This document shows positions 46,078 to 55,007 of a stretch of DNA of 64,000 nt, one piece after another (position 1 is the stretch's first letter; every line of letters starts with the position of its first letter). Source of the DNA: Dyadobacter luticola. GTDB taxonomy: Bacteria > Bacteroidota > Bacteroidia > Cytophagales > Spirosomataceae. The stretch is from assembly GCF_005860805.1 (NCBI RefSeq), contig NZ_VCEJ01000008.1:248001-312000 (forward strand), read 5' to 3'. A program made the translations under genes and the position numbers. The notes under the pieces were generated by a model. That model did no database searches and had not been told where the DNA came from. It saw only the letters and a list, made by a program, of their open reading frames with translations.

Positions 46078-46986
46078 CTACTTCAAAGTCTGCGTCGTGT
46101 ACGTACTCTCAAAAATCTTATCCGCATTACCAGCCTCAAAACCGTCCCTGCGGTGTTTTCTTTTGATTTCAGCTTGCGGTAAGTTCTGAAATTCAGGGAG
46201 GATTCTTCTTTCGGCAAATTCGACGTAGGAGCCCGAGATGGTTAAATGTTCTCCATTTGCAAATTCAGCATTGAGCATTTCAGCAACGGTTGCACTTTGC
46301 AGCAAGCCGCCATCGGGGCTTACCTTAATTTTTCCTCCGGAGGTATTCAGCTTAATGCCATTTTTTTCCAGAAATTCATTGAATGTCGCGACGGTGTCGT
46401 AGCCGGGTGGCAAATTGTGTACGCTGATCGTGAAGTGATTGAGGTAATACCGGTTGTAAATTACCCAGGCCGCATATTCGCTTTCCTTCAAGAGTGCCTG
46501 GTAATCTGTGGCGGAAGGTGTGCGCCAGAGCGGGCGGTGCAGAAATGCGTCCACTTCAAGCCCATTATCCAGGTCGAGCGCATCCACCGGGTCGCTGGTT
46601 ACTTCGTCGGTGTAACTTTTGATGATGCGCTGACTTTCCTCGGAAAGATCCCCGACGCGCAGCTCGCTCACGAAAATCCGGGGATCAGTTTCGCGCGGCG
46701 GACTGTACCACCAGGCATCCAGTTTTTTACTTTCGAAAAAATAATGATCCCGTTTTTCGTAGCCGTAATGCACGAATATTTTTTCGAAAGACTTTACGCC
46801 CAGCTGCTGCACGCCCATGGTGCGGAATGCAATGTGATCGTTTTCAATGTCGTTCGTGCTGGCAACGATCCCGTCGCGGACCATGGCATTTAAAATGATA
46901 CCGACGTCGGGTACGCGTTCTTTGTAGCGGCGCATGAGTCCGTCGAGGACAATGTCGAGCGTGGCGAGTTTGTCAGAAGAAGTCAT
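46078..46986 (-). CDS. DUF1338 domain protein (2-oxoadipate dioxygenase/decarboxylase family)
   Basis: The 302-residue protein carries DUF1338 features: His in ENDHIAFRTMG (about residue 50), His in NRYYLNHFTISVHN, and Glu in SGSYVEFAERR, a plausible metal-binding triad of a vicinal oxygen chelate-like fold. Characterised members (YdcJ/HglS) turn 2-oxoadipate into 2-hydroxyglutarate in lysine catabolism. This protein is shorter than HglS (about 460 aa), so the substrate may differ. It lies on the same strand as proC, 49 bases downstream of it. Confidence 0.8.
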   Translation of the reverse strand: MTSSDKLATLDIVLDGLMRRYKERVPDVGIILNAMVRDGIVASTNDIENDHIAFRTMGVQQLGVKSFEKIFVHYGYEKRDHYFFESKKLDAWWYSPPRETDPRIFVSELRVGDLSEESQRIIKSYTDEVTSDPVDALDLDNGLEVDAFLHRPLWRTPSATDYQALLKESEYAAWVIYNRYYLNHFTISVHNLPPGYDTVATFNEFLEKNGIKLNTSGGKIKVSPDGGLLQSATVAEMLNAEFANGEHLTISGSYVEFAERRILPEFQNLPQAEIKRKHRRDGFEAGNADKIFESTYTTQTLK

Positions 46987-47035
46987 AGTGTTGATAGTTA
47001 AATGTTTATAGTGGTGCGCAGTGACTTTTGGTTTG

Positions 47036-47839
47036 TTAGCCTTTTGATAGCTCTGTCGATCTTACCTGCGCGGCGATGATCCCGTCTTTCAATGTCTGAT
47101 CCAGCTGTCCTGCTTCGAATTGCCGCAATGCTGCCTCGGTAGTGCCGCCTTTTGAGGCGACGGCTTTGATCAGATCATCCAGCGATTTATCCGCAGTATT
47201 GATCAAATGATACGACCCCAGCATGGTTTGCTTCACCAGAAGGGCCGCGACGGATTCTTCAAAACCCATTTGTTTGCCTGCCTCGATCATCGCTTTTACC
47301 ACATAAAAGAAATAAGCCGGTCCGCTGCCGCTCAATGCAGTCACTGCATTCAGCTGATCCTCGTTTTCCAGAAATACGGAGCGCCCGGTAGCATTGATCA
47401 GGTTTTCGATTTTTCTTAACTGGTTGATATCCACCTCTGGCGACGCAGAGTATGCGGTAATACCCATGCCGAGCATCGCCGGTGTATTGGGCATCGCGCG
47501 GATCACCGCTTTATGGTCTAATGCATTTTGAATAATCTGGATCGTGATCCCCGCCATGATGGATAATACCACCTGGTTGGGCTTTACTACTGCTTTTAAT
47601 GCTTCCGAAACAGACAAAAAATCCTGCGGTTTTACCGACAAAATGATCAGATCGTACTCGCCAATCTGTGGGCCGATGACGCCGGTAATCACACCCGGTT
47701 GAAAGCTGGTCAGACTTTCCATGCGGTCGAGACTTTTTTCAACCAGCAGAAAATCTTCTTTTTTGACCAGATCAAATTTCAGGAAAGCGCGGGCGAAGGC
47801 CATGCCCATATTGCCGCAGCCGATAATTGCAATTTTCAT
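47036..47839 (-). CDS. proC: Pyrroline-5-carboxylate reductase
   Basis: ProC reduces pyrroline-5-carboxylate to proline with NAD(P)H. The 267-residue protein begins MKIAIIGCGNMGMAFARAFL (GxGxxG), has the substrate segment VIRAMPNTPAMLGMG, and ends with the dimerisation domain that carries ALSGSGPAYFFYVVKAMIEA and ASKGGTTEAAL. Length is normal. It is followed by DUF1338 on the same strand. Confidence 0.95.
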   Translation of the reverse strand: MKIAIIGCGNMGMAFARAFLKFDLVKKEDFLLVEKSLDRMESLTSFQPGVITGVIGPQIGEYDLIILSVKPQDFLSVSEALKAVVKPNQVVLSIMAGITIQIIQNALDHKAVIRAMPNTPAMLGMGITAYSASPEVDINQLRKIENLINATGRSVFLENEDQLNAVTALSGSGPAYFFYVVKAMIEAGKQMGFEESVAALLVKQTMLGSYHLINTADKSLDDLIKAVASKGGTTEAALRQFEAGQLDQTLKDGIIAAQVRSTELSKG

Positions 47840-48143: not shown

Positions 48144-51100
48144 ATGGCTATAAAAGTTGCTATTTCGCACAAAACAAAATACAAATTTGACCGGAGTGTT
48201 TCACTATCACCGCATATTTTTCGACTCAGACCTGCGCCACATTCCCGGACAGCCATAGAAGGATACTCGTTTAAAATTTCCCCTGAAAATCACTTTATCA
48301 ACTGGCAGCAAGACCCTTTCGGTAACTATCAGGCGCGGGTTGTTTTTCCTGAAAAAACAACGGAACTGAGCATCGATGTAGAGGTGATCGCCAAGTTACA
48401 GGTGATCAACCCATTTGATTTTTTTGTTGAAGATTATGCCGAAAAATTTCCTTTCAACTACGAATCTGGCTTAAAGAAAGAACTCGGGCCATATCTCGAA
48501 CCAAGAGAGTCGGGCCCGAAACTGATGCAGTGGATTGCCGACAACCGGCCAGCCGACGGCATTAAGATCGTCGATTTTTTGGTGCATCTCAACCAGCGGA
48601 TTTTCAGGTCGATCGGATATAACATTCGCATGGAGGCCGGCGTGCAGACCTGCGAGGATACATTGAATATGCAAAGCGGCTCCTGCCGTGATTCTGCCTG
48701 GATGTTTGTCCAGGTTTTGCGGCATTTGGGTATTGCGGCGCGGTTTGTTTCCGGGTACCTGGTGCAGCTTACTTCCGACATTAAATCGCTCGATGGTCCG
48801 TCTGGCCCCGAGGAAGATTTTACTGATTTGCATGCCTGGGCGGAGGCTTACGTTCCTGGTGCGGGCTGGATTGGTCTGGACGCAACTTCCGGCCTTTTTG
48901 CCAGTGAGGGCCACATTCCGCTTTGCTGTACGCCCGACTATGCGAGCGCGGCGCCTGTTACCGGTGCTACCGACGTATGCGAGGTAACATTTGAATTCGA
49001 CAACAAAGTGTACCGCATCCACGAAGATCCGCGCGTCACCAAACCTTATACTGAGGAGCAGTGGGCGGCGGTGATGGAAGTGGGCAATGTAGTTGAAAGG
49101 GATTTGCAGGAAAACGATGTGCGCCTGACGATGGGCGGCGAGCCGACCTTTATTTCTATTGACGACTACGAATCGCCGGAGTGGAATACTGCGGCGGACG
49201 GACCTCTGAAACGTCAGCTGGCGTATGACCTTTCGCTGAGACTGAAAAAGCGTTTTGCGCACGGCGGGCTGCTGCATTTTGGTCAGGGAAAATGGTATCC
49301 TGGCGAACAATTTCCGCGCTGGCAATATGCCTTATATTGGAGAAATGACGGCGTGCCGATGTGGCGCAATGATGATCTGGTGACCAAAGAAGGTCAGACC
49401 AAATATACTTTTCGCGAGGCGGAGCTTTTTACCACGGAGCTTTCGAAATACCTCGGCATTGATACCAACAACATTACCCCGGCTTACGAGGACCCGATTT
49501 ACTGGGCGATGGAAGAGGGGAAAATTCCGGTAAATGTTGATCCATTGAAAGTTAACCTGAAAGATTCGGTTGAGCGGAGAACATTGGCAAAGCTGCTGGA
49601 AAAAGGGCTTAACAATCCTGCGGGATTTATTTTGCCGATTAAATGGAATACGGAAGGTGAACATTGGGCGAGCAGTGCCTGGCAGTTTCGCCGCAACAAT
49701 TGTTTCCTGATCCCGGGAAACTCGGCAATCGGTTACCGGCTGCCGCTGACCGCGCTCCCGGAAGTAGCGAAAGAAAGACGCGAGCAGCCCATCGAGCGCA
49801 GCCCATTTGAAGATTTGCCTCCGCTGGCGGATTATAAGCCTATCGTGCAGTCGCGATACGGCTCTGTGGCGCCTGCCTATCAGTTGCCTTTGAATGTGCT
49901 GCCGGACGAGGAAGGTGAGAAAATAGAGAAGGACGCAACATTGCTTTTTGATGTGCCGATCATTAAAACGGCGATCTGTATTGAGGAGCGGGACGGGATC
50001 ATTTACATTTTCCTTCCGCCCACAGATTATCTGGAACATTACCTGGACTTGATGGCGTCCATCGAGGCGACAGCTGAAAAATTGCAAATGCCGGTCCGCA
50101 TTGAAGGTTACCCGGCGCCTTCGGATTACCGCGTTCAGAAATTGATAGTTACGCCGGATCCCGGTGTGATTGAAGTAAACATTCACCCTGCGAAAAACTG
50201 GCAGGAGCTTGTTGATAACATTAGTGCGCTTTACGAAGAAGCATTTTTCTCGCGCCTCGGCACAGATAAATTTATGGTCGACGGGCGGCATACGGGAACT
50301 GGCGGGGGTAACCACGTCACGATCGGTGGTGCGAAACCGGCTGACAGTCCGATACTTCGGCGGCCTGACTTGCTTAGAAGCCTTTTGACTTATTGGCAGC
50401 ATCACCCGGCGCTGAGCTACCTTTTTGCGGGACCATTTATCGGGCCTACCAGCCAGGCGCCGCGGATCGATGAAGGTCGGGATGAAAGGCTTTATGAAGT
50501 GGAAATTGCATTTGACCAGATTCCGGAAGGTGAAGAAGTGCCTTTCTGGATGGTGGACCGCATTTTCAGGAATTTGCTGGTAGATATTACGGGAAATACG
50601 CACCGGTCGGAATTTTGTATGGACAAGCTGTATTCGCCGGATTCTTCGACGGGACGACTGGGTATCCTCGAATTTCGCGCATTTGACATGCCGCCGCATA
50701 AGCACATGAATTTGGTGCAAACATTGCTCATCCGGGCTTTGATCTCTAAGTTTTGGAAAAACCCTTATAAACATAAGCTGATCCGCTGGGGTACCGAGCT
50801 GCACGACCGTTTCCTGCTGCCGCATTTTGCGTACCTGGATATGGTGGATGTGGTAAATGATTTGAAAGAAGCGGGTTACCATTTCGACATTTCATGGTTT
50901 GATCCGTTCTTCGAATTCCGTTTTCCGCATTATGGCGGGATCACCGTAGATAACATCCAGCTGGACCTGCGCCTGGGTATTGAGCCGTGGCATGTCTTGG
51001 GTGAAGAGTTATCTAACTCAGGAACAGCACGTTTTGTGGATTCTTCGCTGGAAAGATTGCAGGTAAAAGTGAGCGGCTTCGTGGAAGGCCGGCACATTCT

Positions 51101-51551
51101 GGTATGTAACAGCTGCCGCGTGCCGCTGAGAAGTTCGGGCATTAAAGGCGAATATGTTTCAGGAATCCGCTACAAAGCGTGGAATCCGCCGTCAGCATTA
51201 CACCCGACGATCGGGGCTGATGCGCCGCTGGTTTTCGACATTGTCGATACCTGGAATAACCGTATCTTGGGTGGCTGTACCTATTTTGTTTCGCATCCCG
51301 GCGGACGTAGTTTTGATACGTATCCTGTCAACAGTTTTGAAGCAGAATCTCGGAAAATCAGCCTTTTCCAAGGATTTGGCCACACGCCATCTTCCCGGCA
51401 GGAAGTGCAGATCAAGGAAGAATCTACCGGCGGTGTTTCCCGGTTTGTAGCCGAAACCAAAAAAGAAATGCGGGCCGACACGCCGATAGAATTAATCAAT
51501 CCGGAGTATCCGAATACGCTGGATTTACGTAAATACTGGAAATCAAAATAG
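48144..51551 (+). CDS. Transglutaminase fused to DUF2126 (permuted GS-like ligase family)
   Basis: The 1135-residue protein begins with a bacterial transglutaminase N-terminal beta domain (residues about 3-110) and a transglutaminase core with catalytic Cys181 in SGSCRDSAW, His230 in DLHAWAEAYVP and Asp246 in GWIGLDATSG. From about residue 325 to the end lies DUF2126, starting LTMGGEPTFISIDDYESPEW, with GTGGGNHVTIGGAKP near 715-730 and FRAFDMPPHKHMN near 850. DUF2126 was proposed in published comparative genomics to be a circularly permuted glutamine-synthetase-like ligase. No signal peptide: cytoplasmic. It leads the three-gene unit that follows within 32 bases, implying joint action on peptides or a protein tag. 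Confidence 0.88.
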   Translation: MAIKVAISHKTKYKFDRSVSLSPHIFRLRPAPHSRTAIEGYSFKISPENHFINWQQDPFGNYQARVVFPEKTTELSIDVEVIAKLQVINPFDFFVEDYAEKFPFNYESGLKKELGPYLEPRESGPKLMQWIADNRPADGIKIVDFLVHLNQRIFRSIGYNIRMEAGVQTCEDTLNMQSGSCRDSAWMFVQVLRHLGIAARFVSGYLVQLTSDIKSLDGPSGPEEDFTDLHAWAEAYVPGAGWIGLDATSGLFASEGHIPLCCTPDYASAAPVTGATDVCEVTFEFDNKVYRIHEDPRVTKPYTEEQWAAVMEVGNVVERDLQENDVRLTMGGEPTFISIDDYESPEWNTAADGPLKRQLAYDLSLRLKKRFAHGGLLHFGQGKWYPGEQFPRWQYALYWRNDGVPMWRNDDLVTKEGQTKYTFREAELFTTELSKYLGIDTNNITPAYEDPIYWAMEEGKIPVNVDPLKVNLKDSVERRTLAKLLEKGLNNPAGFILPIKWNTEGEHWASSAWQFRRNNCFLIPGNSAIGYRLPLTALPEVAKERREQPIERSPFEDLPPLADYKPIVQSRYGSVAPAYQLPLNVLPDEEGEKIEKDATLLFDVPIIKTAICIEERDGIIYIFLPPTDYLEHYLDLMASIEATAEKLQMPVRIEGYPAPSDYRVQKLIVTPDPGVIEVNIHPAKNWQELVDNISALYEEAFFSRLGTDKFMVDGRHTGTGGGNHVTIGGAKPADSPILRRPDLLRSLLTYWQHHPALSYLFAGPFIGPTSQAPRIDEGRDERLYEVEIAFDQIPEGEEVPFWMVDRIFRNLLVDITGNTHRSEFCMDKLYSPDSSTGRLGILEFRAFDMPPHKHMNLVQTLLIRALISKFWKNPYKHKLIRWGTELHDRFLLPHFAYLDMVDVVNDLKEAGYHFDISWFDPFFEFRFPHYGGITVDNIQLDLRLGIEPWHVLGEELSNSGTARFVDSSLERLQVKVSGFVEGRHILVCNSCRVPLRSSGIKGEYVSGIRYKAWNPPSALHPTIGADAPLVFDIVDTWNNRILGGCTYFVSHPGGRSFDTYPVNSFEAESRKISLFQGFGHTPSSRQEVQIKEESTGGVSRFVAETKKEMRADTPIELINPEYPNTLDLRKYWKSK

Positions 51552-51583
51552 ATTTCCTGATAAACCCCCTTTTTGAAGAAAAC

Positions 51584-54142
51584 ATGCTTACCGAGGCTTC
51601 TGTGAACCTTTTAGAATCATATACCAGTGGATTGAGTTCTTACGACGAAGTCCTGGATCTGAACGGAGTAATCAAACCTCATTGGAAAGCACTTTTCGGA
51701 ACGATTGAAAAATTGGGTATCGGCGAGCTCAACAGCAGGAACCAGGAAATTGTCAGCAAGCTCCGCGAAAACGGTGTTACCTACAATGTTTACGGCACGC
51801 CCGACGGCATGAACCGTCCCTGGCAGCTTGATCCGATTCCTTTTTTAATCGAACAAAAAGAATGGAATGCGATTGCAAAAGGCTTGGAGCAGCGGGCCGT
51901 TTTGCTGGATTTAATGTTGAAGGATCTGTATGGTCCACGCAATCTGGTCAAAGACGGCATTATTCCCGCCGAGCTGGTTTTTGACAACACCGGTTTTTTC
52001 CGGCCGTGCACGGATGTAAAACTCCCTGCAAATCAGCAGCTGATCTTATTCGCCGCCGATATGGCGCGCGGTCCGGACGGGCAAATGTGGATCGTGGATA
52101 ACCGCACGCAGGCGCCGTCGGGCTCAGGTTATACGCTCGAAAACCGCGTGGTGATGAGCAAGCTGCTGCCCGAGCTGGCGCAGGGAATGTACGTCAGCAA
52201 GCTTTCGCCTTATTTTAATAGTTTACAAAATACCGTTCTCCGGCTTTCCGATAAAAGCAAAGATGCTCCCAACATTGTATACCTCACGCCGGGGCCGAAC
52301 AATGAAGCGTATTTTGAACACGCCTATCTGGCTTCCTACCTCGGCTATACATTGGCCCAGGGGGATGATCTTTTGGTGAGAAATGGCTGCGTGTGGCTCA
52401 AATCCATCGATGGTCTGCAAAAAGTGGATGTTATAGTTCGTCGGATCGATGATGACTGGTGCGATCCGCTGGAACTTCGGGAGGATTCTCAACTGGGCGT
52501 GCCGGGTTTGCTGCAGGCGATCAGGATGGGACATGTGCAGGTGCTGAATGCGCCGGGTACCAGTGTGCTGGAAAACCATGCATTCCTGGCATTTATGGAG
52601 AATATCTGCCAATATTTTTTGAAGGAAAAACTGATCATGCCTTCCGTGGCGACCTGGTGGTGCGGCCACGCGAAAGAGCTGAGCTATGTGCTGGAAAACA
52701 TCGATGAGCTGATCATTAAAAAAGCCAACCGGAAAACAAGATTCCGGTCGATTTATGGCCGGCTGCTCACCAGCATTGAAAAGGAGGATTTGAAAAGAAT
52801 GATCGAGGCGGCCCCGCACGAATTTATCGCCCAGCAGGAGGTAAGCCTTTCTACAACGCCTTCATTGATCGACGGTAACATTGAGCCGCGCTACGCGGTG
52901 CTGCGGGCATTTATGGTGGCCGATGGAAATGGTTACCACGTGATGCAGGGCGGACTTACGCGCAGCTCAGCGGTGAAAGACCGGTTTGTAATCTCCAATC
53001 AATATGGCGGTTTTTCAAAAGATACCTGGATTGTTTCCGATAAAACCGTGGATACGCAGGAAAAGGTAACATTGATCACGCCGGCATCGGTGAACAAGCA
53101 CGTTTCGCTGCCGAGCCGGAGTGCCGAGAATTTGTTCTGGGTGGGCCGGTATTGCGAGCGGACGATGGCGGTGATCAAATTTATGAACATTACTATCAAT
53201 GTGCTCAACCTCGACCGCAACTTCGGCGGCTCGGCCAAGCAGGAACACATTAAAGTGCTTTTACAGGCGCTGACACATCTTTCTTCTACTTACCCCGGCT
53301 TTTTAGACGAAACAGAGGACAAATTTCAGGATCCTTACAAAGAGGTGATCGATATGATTTCCAATATTTCGCGGGCTGGGTCGGTGGCAAGTAACATTGG
53401 CTCGTTTCTGAACGCGGTAGGGGCGGTGCGCAACCAATGGGACCTGGAAATCTGGCGGATCGTGGACCTGATCGATAAAGGGTTTCACAGCATCCGCAAT
53501 GCTTCGAGCATGAATAGTACCAACATTCAAAAAACACTCGACGGGCTTTTTAACAATATGTTCACTTTCCTGGGCGTGATCGCGGAAAGTATGCCGCGGG
53601 ACAATAGTTTTCTGCTGCTCGAAACCGGGAAGCTGATCGAGCGTATCCTGTCGCGGATCAGTGTGATACAATCTAATTTTGGTGTGAAAAATGCGCCTGC
53701 GGTGGAAAATGAGTTGATCGAAGCCACATTGATCAACCATCATTTGCTGGTGAATTACCGGCAGATTTATAAATCACATTTAAGTGTAGAGGCGATGCTG
53801 GATATGGTGCTCCTTGAAAAAAAGCTGCCTTATTCGCTGGCTTATATGCTGGATGAATTGAAGAAAAACCTCGGTCATTTACCCACAACCACACGCGGAG
53901 AAAGATTAAATGAGGCGGAGAAATTTGTGTTGAAAGCTTCCACGTTGATCAAGCTGGCGGATATTGCCGATTTGAGTAAAAGCAACCGGAATTCGGAGCG
54001 GGAAGAGTTATTCGACTTGCTTTCTGAGGTAGCGAGGCTGATCAGCTCGGTTTCTACTACGTTGAACAATATGTATTTCAGCCACACATTAATGCACCAC
54101 TCGTTTTTTGACCCTGCGGACTACGATACCGATGAAATATAA
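51584..54142 (+). CDS. Circularly permuted ATP-grasp fused to an alpha-E domain
   Basis: The 852-residue protein joins a type 2 permuted ATP-grasp domain (residues about 70-480, DUF404/DUF407-like, with DGMNRPWQLDPIPFLIEQKE and MWIVDNRTQAPSGSGYTLEN) to an alpha-E (DUF403) helical domain (from about residue 508, SLPSRSAENLFWVGRYCERT) that runs to the end. In most bacteria these are two separate genes, so the fusion is stable evidence that they work together. ATP-grasp enzymes form peptide-like amide bonds through acyl phosphates. The partner proteins on both sides are transglutaminase-like. It is followed by the third gene with an 11-base overlap. The substrate is not established. Confidence 0.88.
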   Translation: MLTEASVNLLESYTSGLSSYDEVLDLNGVIKPHWKALFGTIEKLGIGELNSRNQEIVSKLRENGVTYNVYGTPDGMNRPWQLDPIPFLIEQKEWNAIAKGLEQRAVLLDLMLKDLYGPRNLVKDGIIPAELVFDNTGFFRPCTDVKLPANQQLILFAADMARGPDGQMWIVDNRTQAPSGSGYTLENRVVMSKLLPELAQGMYVSKLSPYFNSLQNTVLRLSDKSKDAPNIVYLTPGPNNEAYFEHAYLASYLGYTLAQGDDLLVRNGCVWLKSIDGLQKVDVIVRRIDDDWCDPLELREDSQLGVPGLLQAIRMGHVQVLNAPGTSVLENHAFLAFMENICQYFLKEKLIMPSVATWWCGHAKELSYVLENIDELIIKKANRKTRFRSIYGRLLTSIEKEDLKRMIEAAPHEFIAQQEVSLSTTPSLIDGNIEPRYAVLRAFMVADGNGYHVMQGGLTRSSAVKDRFVISNQYGGFSKDTWIVSDKTVDTQEKVTLITPASVNKHVSLPSRSAENLFWVGRYCERTMAVIKFMNITINVLNLDRNFGGSAKQEHIKVLLQALTHLSSTYPGFLDETEDKFQDPYKEVIDMISNISRAGSVASNIGSFLNAVGAVRNQWDLEIWRIVDLIDKGFHSIRNASSMNSTNIQKTLDGLFNNMFTFLGVIAESMPRDNSFLLLETGKLIERILSRISVIQSNFGVKNAPAVENELIEATLINHHLLVNYRQIYKSHLSVEAMLDMVLLEKKLPYSLAYMLDELKKNLGHLPTTTRGERLNEAEKFVLKASTLIKLADIADLSKSNRNSEREELFDLLSEVARLISSVSTTLNNMYFSHTLMHHSFFDPADYDTDEI

Positions 54143-55007
54143 GCTGATCCATAAAACGGAATATAAGTATGCCCAGGCCGTGAACAATTATCATAGCCTG
54201 CTGTGCCTTACGCCGCGGACATTGAATAACCAGTCTTGCAAGGATTTTAGCATTGAAGTCACGCCCAAACCTTCCGAGCTCGTCAGCCGGACGGATTTTT
54301 ACGGAAATACGGTACATTATTTTTCCCTGCACTCGCCGCATAAAACATTGACGGTGCTGACAAAAGGTATTGTCGAGCGGTTTCAGGAAAGTACGGGGTC
54401 GCTTTTTATGCCGTCGGAAATTAGCTGCGCGACGGTGCGGCATCGGGTGCAAAATGACCGTTCACTAAAAATTTCGCTGATAGAATTTATGCTGCCGAGT
54501 CCCTCGGTAAAATGGGACCGGGAAATTGTGGGTTATGCCAGCGATTGTTTTCAGGAAAGCCGGCCTTTGTATGAATGTGTCCAGGCGCTTTGCCGGAAAA
54601 TCTATACGGAATTTGATTTTGTACCTGATTTCACGACGGTTAACACACCTATAAAAGAGGTTCTGCACGCCAGAAAAGGAGTTTGTCAGGATTTTTCTCA
54701 TTTGGCGATTGCCTGTATCCGAAGTTTTGGCTTTGCGGCGCGGTATGTAAGCGGCTACCTGGAAACATTGCCACCGCCGGGCAAGCAGAAATTGCAGGGC
54801 TCCGACGCGTCTCACGCCTGGATTTCGGTTTTCATTCCCGACTACGGCTGGTGCGATTTTGACCCTACCAATAATGTGGTGCCCGGCGAAAGACATATCA
54901 CCACCGCCTGGGGCCGCGATTATACCGATGTGCCGCCGCTGAAAGGGATTATATTCAGCTACGGAAAACACACGCTTAAAGTGGAAGTAGATGTAATTCC
55001 CGTTTGA
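54132..55007 (+). CDS. Transglutaminase-like cysteine peptidase
   Basis: The start is the ATG at 54132 (MKYKLIHKTEYKYAQAVNNY), which overlaps the end of the ATP-grasp gene by 11 bases. The 291-residue protein has the same N-terminal beta domain as the first gene of the operon and a transglutaminase core with Cys185 in ARKGVCQDFSH, His228 in SDASHAWISVF and Asp244 in CDFDPTNNV. It is a compact, stand-alone version of the module fused to DUF2126. Such proteins usually act as peptidases. With the adjacent ligases it could trim or remove what they attach. It is the last gene of the unit. Confidence 0.9.
   Translation: MKYKLIHKTEYKYAQAVNNYHSLLCLTPRTLNNQSCKDFSIEVTPKPSELVSRTDFYGNTVHYFSLHSPHKTLTVLTKGIVERFQESTGSLFMPSEISCATVRHRVQNDRSLKISLIEFMLPSPSVKWDREIVGYASDCFQESRPLYECVQALCRKIYTEFDFVPDFTTVNTPIKEVLHARKGVCQDFSHLAIACIRSFGFAARYVSGYLETLPPPGKQKLQGSDASHAWISVFIPDYGWCDFDPTNNVVPGERHITTAWGRDYTDVPPLKGIIFSYGKHTLKVEVDVIPV

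Follow-up and report, generated by a model that had tools for sequence, protein, structure and literature searches.

A transglutaminase, DUF2126, ATP-grasp and alpha-E operon of Dyadobacter luticola and its probable pseudo-ligase

In this work, we are describing a three-gene operon located in a stretch of 64,000 nucleotides of the Dyadobacter luticola genome (Bacteroidota, order Cytophagales; assembly GCF_005860805.1, contig NZ_VCEJ01000008.1, positions 248,001 to 312,000 of the forward strand), referred to below as the window. The operon encodes a transglutaminase-like domain joined to DUF2126, a circularly permuted ATP-grasp (CP-grasp) joined to an alpha-E domain, and a second, stand-alone transglutaminase-like protein. 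Comparison of the fused CP-grasp with its stand-alone relatives indicates that the fused protein is most likely a conserved pseudo-ligase, because it lacks the metal motif, the glycine-rich loop and one of the ATP lysines.

Results

Genes and domains of the operon

Positions are those of the window; all features lie on the plus strand, and aa stands for amino acids.

48144..51551, +, gene 1: transglutaminase-like domain and DUF2126 (a putative amidoligase resembling the glutamine synthetase (GS) superfamily), 1135 aa; open reading frame (ORF), Pfam and Foldseek
48159..48389, +, Bact_transglu_N of gene 1, aa 6-82; Pfam, 91.6 bits
48579..48884, +, Transglut_core of gene 1, aa 146-247; Pfam, 59.6 bits
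48684-48686, 48831-48833 and 48879-48881, +, triad C181, H230 and D246 of gene 1; invariant in 61/61
48972..51530, +, DUF2126 of gene 1, aa 277-1129; Pfam, 1294.7 bits, 826/826 positions
51584..54142, +, gene 2: CP-grasp and alpha-E fusion, 852 aa; ORF, Pfam, model and Foldseek
51839..52966, +, CP_ATPgrasp_2 of gene 2, aa 86-461; Pfam, 490.5 bits, and a match to 3n6x at 1.6e-88
52097..52105, +, altered metal motif D172-N173-R174 of gene 2, E-D-N in the stand-alone counterpart; alignment
52577..52579, +, H332 of gene 2, in a column that is Lys in 42/42 stand-alone ligases; alignment
52736..52747, +, lost glycine-rich loop T385-R-F-R388 of gene 2, G-G-Y-G in the stand-alone counterpart; alignment
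53108..54079, +, Alpha-E of gene 2, aa 509-832; Pfam, 183.1 bits; E-R motifs kept, R-E-N-x-R motif of stand-alone alpha-E lost
54132..55007, +, gene 3: stand-alone transglutaminase-like protein, 291 aa from the ATG; Bact_transglu_N 87.5 and Transglut_core 74.4 bits
54684-54686, 54813-54815 and 54861-54863, +, triad C185, H228 and D244 of gene 3; invariant in 37/37

The initial annotation of this locus, made from the letters of the sequence, had read it as one unit of three genes with the domains listed above, and both the ORFs and the Pfam searches which it had recommended confirm this, all matches of the three proteins being far above the curated cut-offs (gene 2 was additionally matched by CP_ATPgrasp_1, 325.8 bits). 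Its two Cys-His-Asp triads were assigned correctly and are identical in all aligned proteins, that is, in 61 of the 81 available for gene 1 and 37 of the 41 available for gene 3. The same applies to the 11-base overlap of genes 2 and 3 (54132-54142), given the ATG start; the longest frame of gene 3 begins with a TTG at 54108, 24 bases upstream of this ATG, and such a start is possible and would lengthen the overlap. Genes 1 and 2 are separated by 32 bases. NCBIfam has no family for any of the three operon proteins.

Ligase residues of fused and stand-alone CP-grasps

The CP-grasp alignment contained 57 fused and 42 stand-alone domains, partial frames having been left out (L110, 586 aa, from the fused rows, L123 and L163 from the stand-alone ones); L084 and L108 are the same protein counted as two rows, while L099/L100 and L238-L242 are near-copies. 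Alignments A4, A5 and A6 used 61/81, 44/46 and 37/41 sequences, respectively. Six ligase elements covering the E-x-N metal motif, the lysines and the glycine loop were tested, and all six were found in 42/42 stand-alone domains, which keep D156, E169-x-N171, K327, K374 and the G-G-Y-G loop, versus 0/57 fused ones. Among the latter, the glutamate of the motif is present in one protein and the asparagine in none (Arg in 52), and neither the first lysine nor the GG pair occurs in any of them. A further sample, taken from plasmid records (Acidobacteriota and Actinomycetota among them) and from additional genomes of the order, had all six elements in 10/10 stand-alone versus 0/7 fused proteins, which brings the totals to 52/52 and 0/64. 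From the plasmid listing of 60 rows (117 records) 12 were taken, chosen for taxonomic spread; in some of the seven added fused proteins the loop and K374 columns are possibly misaligned, the E-x-N columns being clear.

According to the initial annotation, two ligase-type domains of the operon build a chain, and loss of ATP- and metal-binding residues was named beforehand as the observation that would speak against it. In the alignment this is what the fused ATP-grasp displays, its metal motif, one ATP lysine and glycine loop being absent from 57 + 7 proteins, and the two-ligase proposal is not supported.

The residues of the stand-alone family match D318, E330-x-N332, K498 and K533 with the following glycine of E. 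coli glutathionylspermidine synthetase (Gss) in order and spacing, and the letters were checked. All 13 sequences of the GSP_synth family that were compared have both lysines, and 12 of them have D, E and N (one gap). Low-scoring hhalign comparisons pair Gss D318, K498 and K533 with D159, H332 and K379 of the fused family, and Gss K498 and K533 with K327 and K374 of the stand-alone one; with E. coli Gss as the single target, hhalign failed for both CP-grasp families.

The model of the fused protein has a mean predicted local distance difference test score (pLDDT) of 85.6, and with it Foldseek retrieved 3n6x (E 1.1e-31), glutathione synthetases and E. coli Gss (2io7, E 5.9e-7). The protein has the CP-grasp fold without the full set of residues expected of an active ligase. 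Certain residues are conserved specifically in the fused family: G182 and E297 in 57/57, W359 and G361 in 56/57, and R174 in 52/57. Against the genome G073, the ratio of nonsynonymous to synonymous substitution rates (dN/dS) is about 0.047 for the fused CP-grasp part and 0.013 for the stand-alone protein, rough values with dS of about 2 near saturation, quoted for this pair alone as dS was unresolved in most others; they place the fused gene under purifying selection. In the tree, fused and stand-alone domains are split by one branch with a Shimodaira-Hasegawa-like approximate likelihood ratio (SH-aLRT) support of 100, obtained by a quick method with a midpoint root and a long-branch warning. 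Because the fold is kept, the family has its own conserved residues, purifying selection acts on it and a single branch separates it, the fused gene would resemble a functional pseudo-enzyme and not a decaying gene, with a re-wired active site as the possibility to be weighed beside it. The literature search, which did not cover Iyer et al. 2009, gave no mention of an inactive, pseudo- or degenerate ATP-grasp.

Two bins (L131 and L139, one of them labelled Aliarcobacter) have very divergent stand-alone CP-grasps with all tested catalytic residues kept, together with a shortened stand-alone alpha-E of 232-234 aa.

In case of the alpha-E domain, each position of the R-E-N-x-R stretch is conserved in 36 to 39 of the 39 stand-alone proteins; the fused form has largely lost this stretch and has largely kept both E-R motifs. 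As judged from the alignments, the fused alpha-E part has diverged in parallel with the CP-grasp part. Foldseek of the fused model gave no solved-structure match assignable to alpha-E.

DUF2126 and the transglutaminase domains

The candidate ligands E333, E677-x-N679, N723-H724, R821, E823 and E843-x-R845 of DUF2126 are identical in 61/61 aligned gene 1 proteins, among which H716 is a further invariant candidate. Both transglutaminase triads and these conserved acidic, His and Arg residues are kept, and DUF2126 would be the better ligase candidate in the operon. The gene 1 model (mean pLDDT 78.2) matched the Cytophaga transglutaminase-like structure 3isr in Foldseek (E 3.7e-13) and, weakly, 1tt4, a predicted glutathione synthase; this match and those to GS chains, considered in the Discussion, probably fall on the DUF2126 part, the Foldseek output giving no aligned ranges. 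Comparison of DUF2126 with GCS2 by hhalign gave a single 32-column match at E843-x-R845 (E 0.055, probability 1%). No solved structure was matched by the gene 1 protein in phmmer, and with a profile built from it, two transglutaminase-type entries and no others came below E 0.01. In the literature searched, the term DUF2126 occurred in no paper and no product of the system was named.

Conservation of the gene set across phyla

Scanning one genome per species gave at least 583 relatives of gene 1, from which the best 80 loci were kept, with labels of Bacteroidota, Pseudomonadota, Nitrospirota, Planctomycetota, Verrucomicrobiota, Poribacteria, Campylobacterota and others. Among these best 80, the transglutaminase-DUF2126 fusion is found in all, the three genes stand in the same order on one strand in 36 (31 of them with fewer than 300 bases between genes 1 and 2), an unfused CP-grasp frame is present in 41 (two shortened by contig ends) and an Anbu gene in 15. 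The transglutaminase directly adjoins the fused CP-grasp/alpha-E gene (>780 aa) in 40/45 loci, often with a 4-base overlap, and many loci add a second, split pair of a stand-alone CP-grasp of about 485 aa and an alpha-E of about 320 aa. Domain content and conserved order support the placement of these genes, made already by the initial annotation, in the predicted ATP-grasp / GS-like ligase / alpha-E / transglutaminase system, and the operon is a further member of this known predicted system, ordinary in kind.

The neighbourhood survey which had also been recommended was run on 21 loci of the order with frames of at least 90 aa. With system genes and neighbours within the genus or in close relatives set aside, two families beyond the operon genes were common, each to two loci. 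None of 81 pattern-matched viral stretches contained a confirmed relative.

Several loci deserve separate mention. In Flavobacterium restrictum and F. aquicola (L104, L105) DUF2126 is 74-76% identical to that of the window, and the fused CP-grasp sits within a clade otherwise formed by the window's order (support 98-99); this identity and position suggest horizontal transfer into Flavobacterium. A metagenome contig titled Helicobacter pylori (L129) has the three genes, the fused one 4 kb from DUF2126, and groups with Aliarcobacter-like sequences; its species label may be wrong. The Acidithiobacillus caldus megaplasmid (L250) encodes a transglutaminase-family protein of about 842 aa followed by CP-grasp and alpha-E, possibly a further variant. 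In Tsukamurella (L249, L252) the fused and split sets are on separate records, and the split set adjoins rpsT.

Core set elsewhere in the genome and nesting of the fused gene

The genome (6.4 Mb, 99.98% complete) encodes, outside the operon, a stand-alone CP-grasp (C3:1221518), a stand-alone alpha-E (C3:788923), two further transglutaminases (C1:619268 and C3:782905) and an Anbu-type N-terminal nucleophile (Ntn) hydrolase (G000:C1:910872-911591), the last on a contig other than that of the operon. Within this core set 6 kb separates the alpha-E gene from one transglutaminase gene, and no other members are close together. If the internal ATG is the start, the genomic Anbu begins with Met-Thr, and this threonine corresponds to the candidate nucleophile of Anbu (PMC6376114). 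No Anbu gene lies beside the operon, so this is not an Anbu operon in the sense of one that includes Anbu itself. The absence of an NTN-hydrolase partner, as proposed in the initial annotation, holds true for the operon and does not for the organism. A third relative of the fold, a GSP_synth-family (glutathionylspermidine-synthetase-like) ATP-grasp, is encoded in the same genome at G000:C5:292048-293181 (L192).

Among 194 genomes of the order, DUF2126 was detected in 38, alpha-E in 76 and Anbu in 56. Alpha-E accompanies DUF2126 in 38/38 and Anbu in 56/56 genomes, and Anbu occurs in 32 of the 38 DUF2126 genomes versus 24 of the 156 others; as these genomes are related, Fisher values overstate their independence. 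At six loci (L109, L112, L113, L115, L117 and L145) Anbu and the transglutaminase adjacent to the fused gene are found together.

The fused gene is nested in the core set. Twenty-nine genomes of the order, from 7 families, carry it, and 28 of them have a second, stand-alone alpha-E, the same 28 having a stand-alone CP-grasp (one-sided Fisher p 1.4e-12, related genomes); the sole exception, G193, is 84% complete. For the test across phyla 50 of the 80 loci were used, giving 49 fused-bearing genomes, of which 47 have a second alpha-E match outside the fused gene, and the two exceptions (G210, G231) are metagenome bins; one of the 49, G199, has a fused gene truncated at the end of a contig, and G211 and G215 have a second match that is both short and weak. 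The cross-phylum genomes were chosen via DUF2126, those of the order by neither gene. The reverse nesting fails, the fused form being absent from 47 of the 75 order genomes with a stand-alone alpha-E. By record label, fused and stand-alone CP-grasps are found together in nine phyla.

Published expression and activity data

In three strains of Pseudomonas putida, values between 11.0 and 37.3 are given for the change of PP_2686-2688 under nitrogen limitation, and PP_2685-2688 are described as likely controlled by NtrB/NtrC (PMC7801951); PP2685, PP2686 and PP2687 are also reported as raised (PMC3325844). On nitrate versus ammonium both PP_2685 (log2 4.44) and PP_2688 (log2 3.99) go up, and the PP_2688 promoter reporter is induced 3.7-fold (PMC8050072). 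In Burkholderia cenocepacia H111 under nitrogen limitation, I35_5080-5083, listed as a DUF404/DUF407 protein, a DUF403 protein, a transglutaminase-like protein and a large protein with a transglutaminase-like domain, have log2 values of -8.2, -9.4, -9.4 and -6.0 in the ntrC mutant versus the wild type (PMC5491218); going by this listing, the large protein is presumably the DUF2126 fusion. The ATP-grasp of a Yersinia Anbu operon releases phosphate from ATP, while Anbu had no detectable peptidase activity (PMC6376114). For Rv2569c, serine-protease activity is reported in a text whose available part does not use the word transglutaminase (PMC11081392), and this was not relied on; in the available parts of PMC13207237 and PMC8407117 a CP-grasp gene is listed only.

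Surroundings of the operon

Upstream of the operon, at 46078-47839 on the minus strand of the window, lie a 2-oxoadipate dioxygenase-like gene (HGLS) and a gene for pyrroline-5-carboxylate reductase, a neighbourhood which in the 21 loci compared is common only within the genus. PADLOC-DB gave 0 families for all three operon proteins at E 0.001, and the window contains no tRNA and no Rfam match at the gathering score. A mobile or defence island was considered and found unsupported, with no PADLOC, viral-contig, Rfam or tRNA match. The promoter scan gave 8 promoter-like sites against a shuffle mean of 9.7, that is, no excess, and the terminator scan 12 terminator-like sites against 9.4 in shuffles; nothing is claimed from either.

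Discussion

On balance we find it probable that the operon is the accessory arm of a conserved two-part amide-ligation system which is linked to nitrogen limitation, and that it is centred on a conserved pseudo-ligase. The core set, located at other places in the genome, would consist of the stand-alone CP-grasp ligase, the stand-alone alpha-E, transglutaminase-like proteins and Anbu. To these the operon would add DUF2126, probably an active GS-type ATP-dependent ligase in one chain with a Cys-His-Asp transglutaminase/hydrolase domain, an intact stand-alone transglutaminase-like enzyme, and the fused CP-grasp/alpha-E protein, a likely pseudo-ligase with a glutathione-synthetase-like fold that could serve as a scaffold for substrate binding or act allosterically on the stand-alone ligase or on DUF2126. 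Amide bonds would be formed by the core CP-grasp and DUF2126 through ATP-dependent activation of a carboxylate. These or related amides would be transferred or hydrolysed by the transglutaminase-like and Ntn enzymes, and the fused protein would position the substrate or control the active ligase. The product would probably serve nitrogen storage, salvage or recycling, because proteobacterial sets of this kind are induced by nitrogen limitation. We infer the role of the pseudo-ligase, its partnership and the chemistry from the observed gene content, domain identity, residue retention and loss, and co-occurrence. The chances seem to us even that the fused protein is an ancient and widespread pseudo-amidoligase working only with its intact stand-alone paralogue, with ligation being done by the latter and by DUF2126, and with substrate choice or gating of the reaction left to the pseudo-ligase, as part of an amide cycle of nitrogen limitation.

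Several observations weigh against this interpretation. The fused CP-grasp retains the D318-like aspartate in 50/57 and the K533-like lysine in 49/57 proteins, and some nucleotide binding is possible. The mapping uses the roles which we take the E. coli Gss residues to have. Against the 13-sequence GSP_synth family both profiles scored low (probability 0.3% for the stand-alone and 6% for the fused one), and the fused profile puts Gss E330 and N332 on I170 and D172, two residues before the assigned motif; the E-x-N equivalence would rest on motif order, spacing, shared fold and letter agreement. In case of DUF2126, GS chains were weak in Foldseek of gene 1 (probability 0.72-0.97, E 0.014-0.054, low TM-scores) and all four matches below 0.001 are transglutaminase-like. 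GS and GCS2 enzymes have E-x-E in the first strand, where DUF2126 has E-P-T. Nitrogen regulation is published for proteobacteria, not for the window's order, and it varies: for the Anbu gene PP_2685 the change amounts to no more than 1.1- to 4.8-fold (PMC7801951), its promoter reporter is nitrogen-agnostic (PMC8050072), and cited data show the operon unchanged under various conditions (PMC5666114). For Anbu, no specific interaction with the co-expressed operon proteins was detected (PMC6376114).

Other explanations share part of this evidence. If both ligase-type domains were active, they could build an amide-linked chain which the two Cys enzymes transfer or trim, as in the published proposals of tagging or peptide synthesis for such genes (PMC6376114, PMC5666114) and in agreement with the domain content of the operon; we hold this to be improbable, as the tested ligase elements are kept in 0/64 fused CP-grasps and no small tag-like gene is common beside the operon in the 21 loci, among the frames compared. 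Peptide tagging as such may nevertheless be the function. It is also unlikely, though to a lesser degree, that the fused CP-grasp has been re-wired and is still active, with Arg174 replacing a metal and Glu297/Glu330 forming a new site. Pseudokinases that proved active are a parallel to such a site, and the residues specific to the fused family, the strong purifying selection and the K533-like Lys point in the same direction, but such a site would also have to do without the second ATP lysine and the glycine-rich loop, the latter having no consistent replacement. The view that the stand-alone transglutaminase takes over the role of an absent Anbu, also put forward in the initial annotation, could draw on the lack of Anbu beside the operon and on the 6/38 DUF2126 genomes of the order with none detected, which include all three of family f18; it was rejected and retains hardly any probability, since Anbu is encoded in the same genome, in most DUF2126 genomes of the order and beside the same transglutaminase at the six loci given above.

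Compatible with a pseudo-ligase is a nitrogen-salvage cycle in place of tagging, in which an amine or peptide would be blocked by ATP-dependent amidation, processed, and released by transglutaminase-like and Ntn hydrolases; we regard it as possible, although somewhat short of an even chance. PuuA and glutathionylspermidine synthetase, which amidate polyamines with ATP, offer a parallel, and the latter is among the matches of the fused CP-grasp model. Related sets respond to nitrogen limitation (PMC7801951, PMC5491218, PMC8050072), and in marine metagenomes urea-metabolism domains are associated with these domains (PMC3597751). Speaking against such a cycle, no oxidase, dehydrogenase or transporter family was seen to be common across genera beside the operon in the 21 order loci (where the two common families were not named), and polyamines are not among the sources named in the available text for the ntrC mutant, which was affected on 7/95 nitrogen sources (PMC5491218). 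In the reading that we favour, DUF2126 is the probable ligase of the operon and the fused protein a conserved pseudo-ligase, both are linked to an intact core ligase encoded at another place in the genome, and the system most likely operates in the context of nitrogen limitation.

For these genes the literature proposes peptide synthesis, tagging or protein turnover, with no substrate given in the available texts. The residue comparison sorts the targets for assays, the stand-alone CP-grasp and DUF2126 as ligases and the fused protein as a partner, and a partner role could help to explain negative results obtained with one protein at a time. The nesting, together with the published response to nitrogen limitation, gives concrete growth conditions and strain designs. 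These results are of moderate interest, as they offer another way of testing a system that has long been open.

Comparison with known systems

An amidoligase / transglutaminase / alpha-E system was reportedly predicted by Iyer, Aravind and colleagues in 2009. The operon has the same domains and the same fusion, and such operons extend across several phyla; the difference lies in our reading of one probable ligase and one pseudo-ligase accompanying a separate, intact core set. The transglutaminase-ligase fusion was named in 2008, e.g. Rv2566, and no Pup-like partner is stated for the family in the available text (PMC2588565); beside the ligase, no Pup-like gene was common among frames of at least 90 aa, shorter frames not being covered. 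To the GS / GCS2 / PafA-Dop superfamily the DUF2126 protein may bear a weak likeness (GS chains and 1tt4 in Foldseek, E-x-R against GCS2), from which its fusion to a transglutaminase domain and the E-P-T of the first strand set it apart. With Gss and glutathione synthetase (2io7, 3n6x) the CP-grasp domain fold is common, whereas the metal motif, the glycine-rich loop and one of the lysines are missing from the fused family. Rlo and RimK/RimB likewise place an ATP-grasp beside a transglutaminase-like or peptidase gene; they differ in the RimK-like type of ATP-grasp, the membrane-bound inactive transglutaminase and the retropepsin, and neither DUF2126 nor alpha-E is mentioned in the available text (PMC12239564). 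In case of the Anbu operon, which consists of CP-grasp, alpha-E, transglutaminase and Anbu (PMC5666114, PMC6376114), all four kinds of gene are present in the genome studied here, the first three as paralogues of those in our operon. However, that set is scattered over at least four places in this genome, and the operon of the window, without Anbu, combines fused, altered paralogues with DUF2126.

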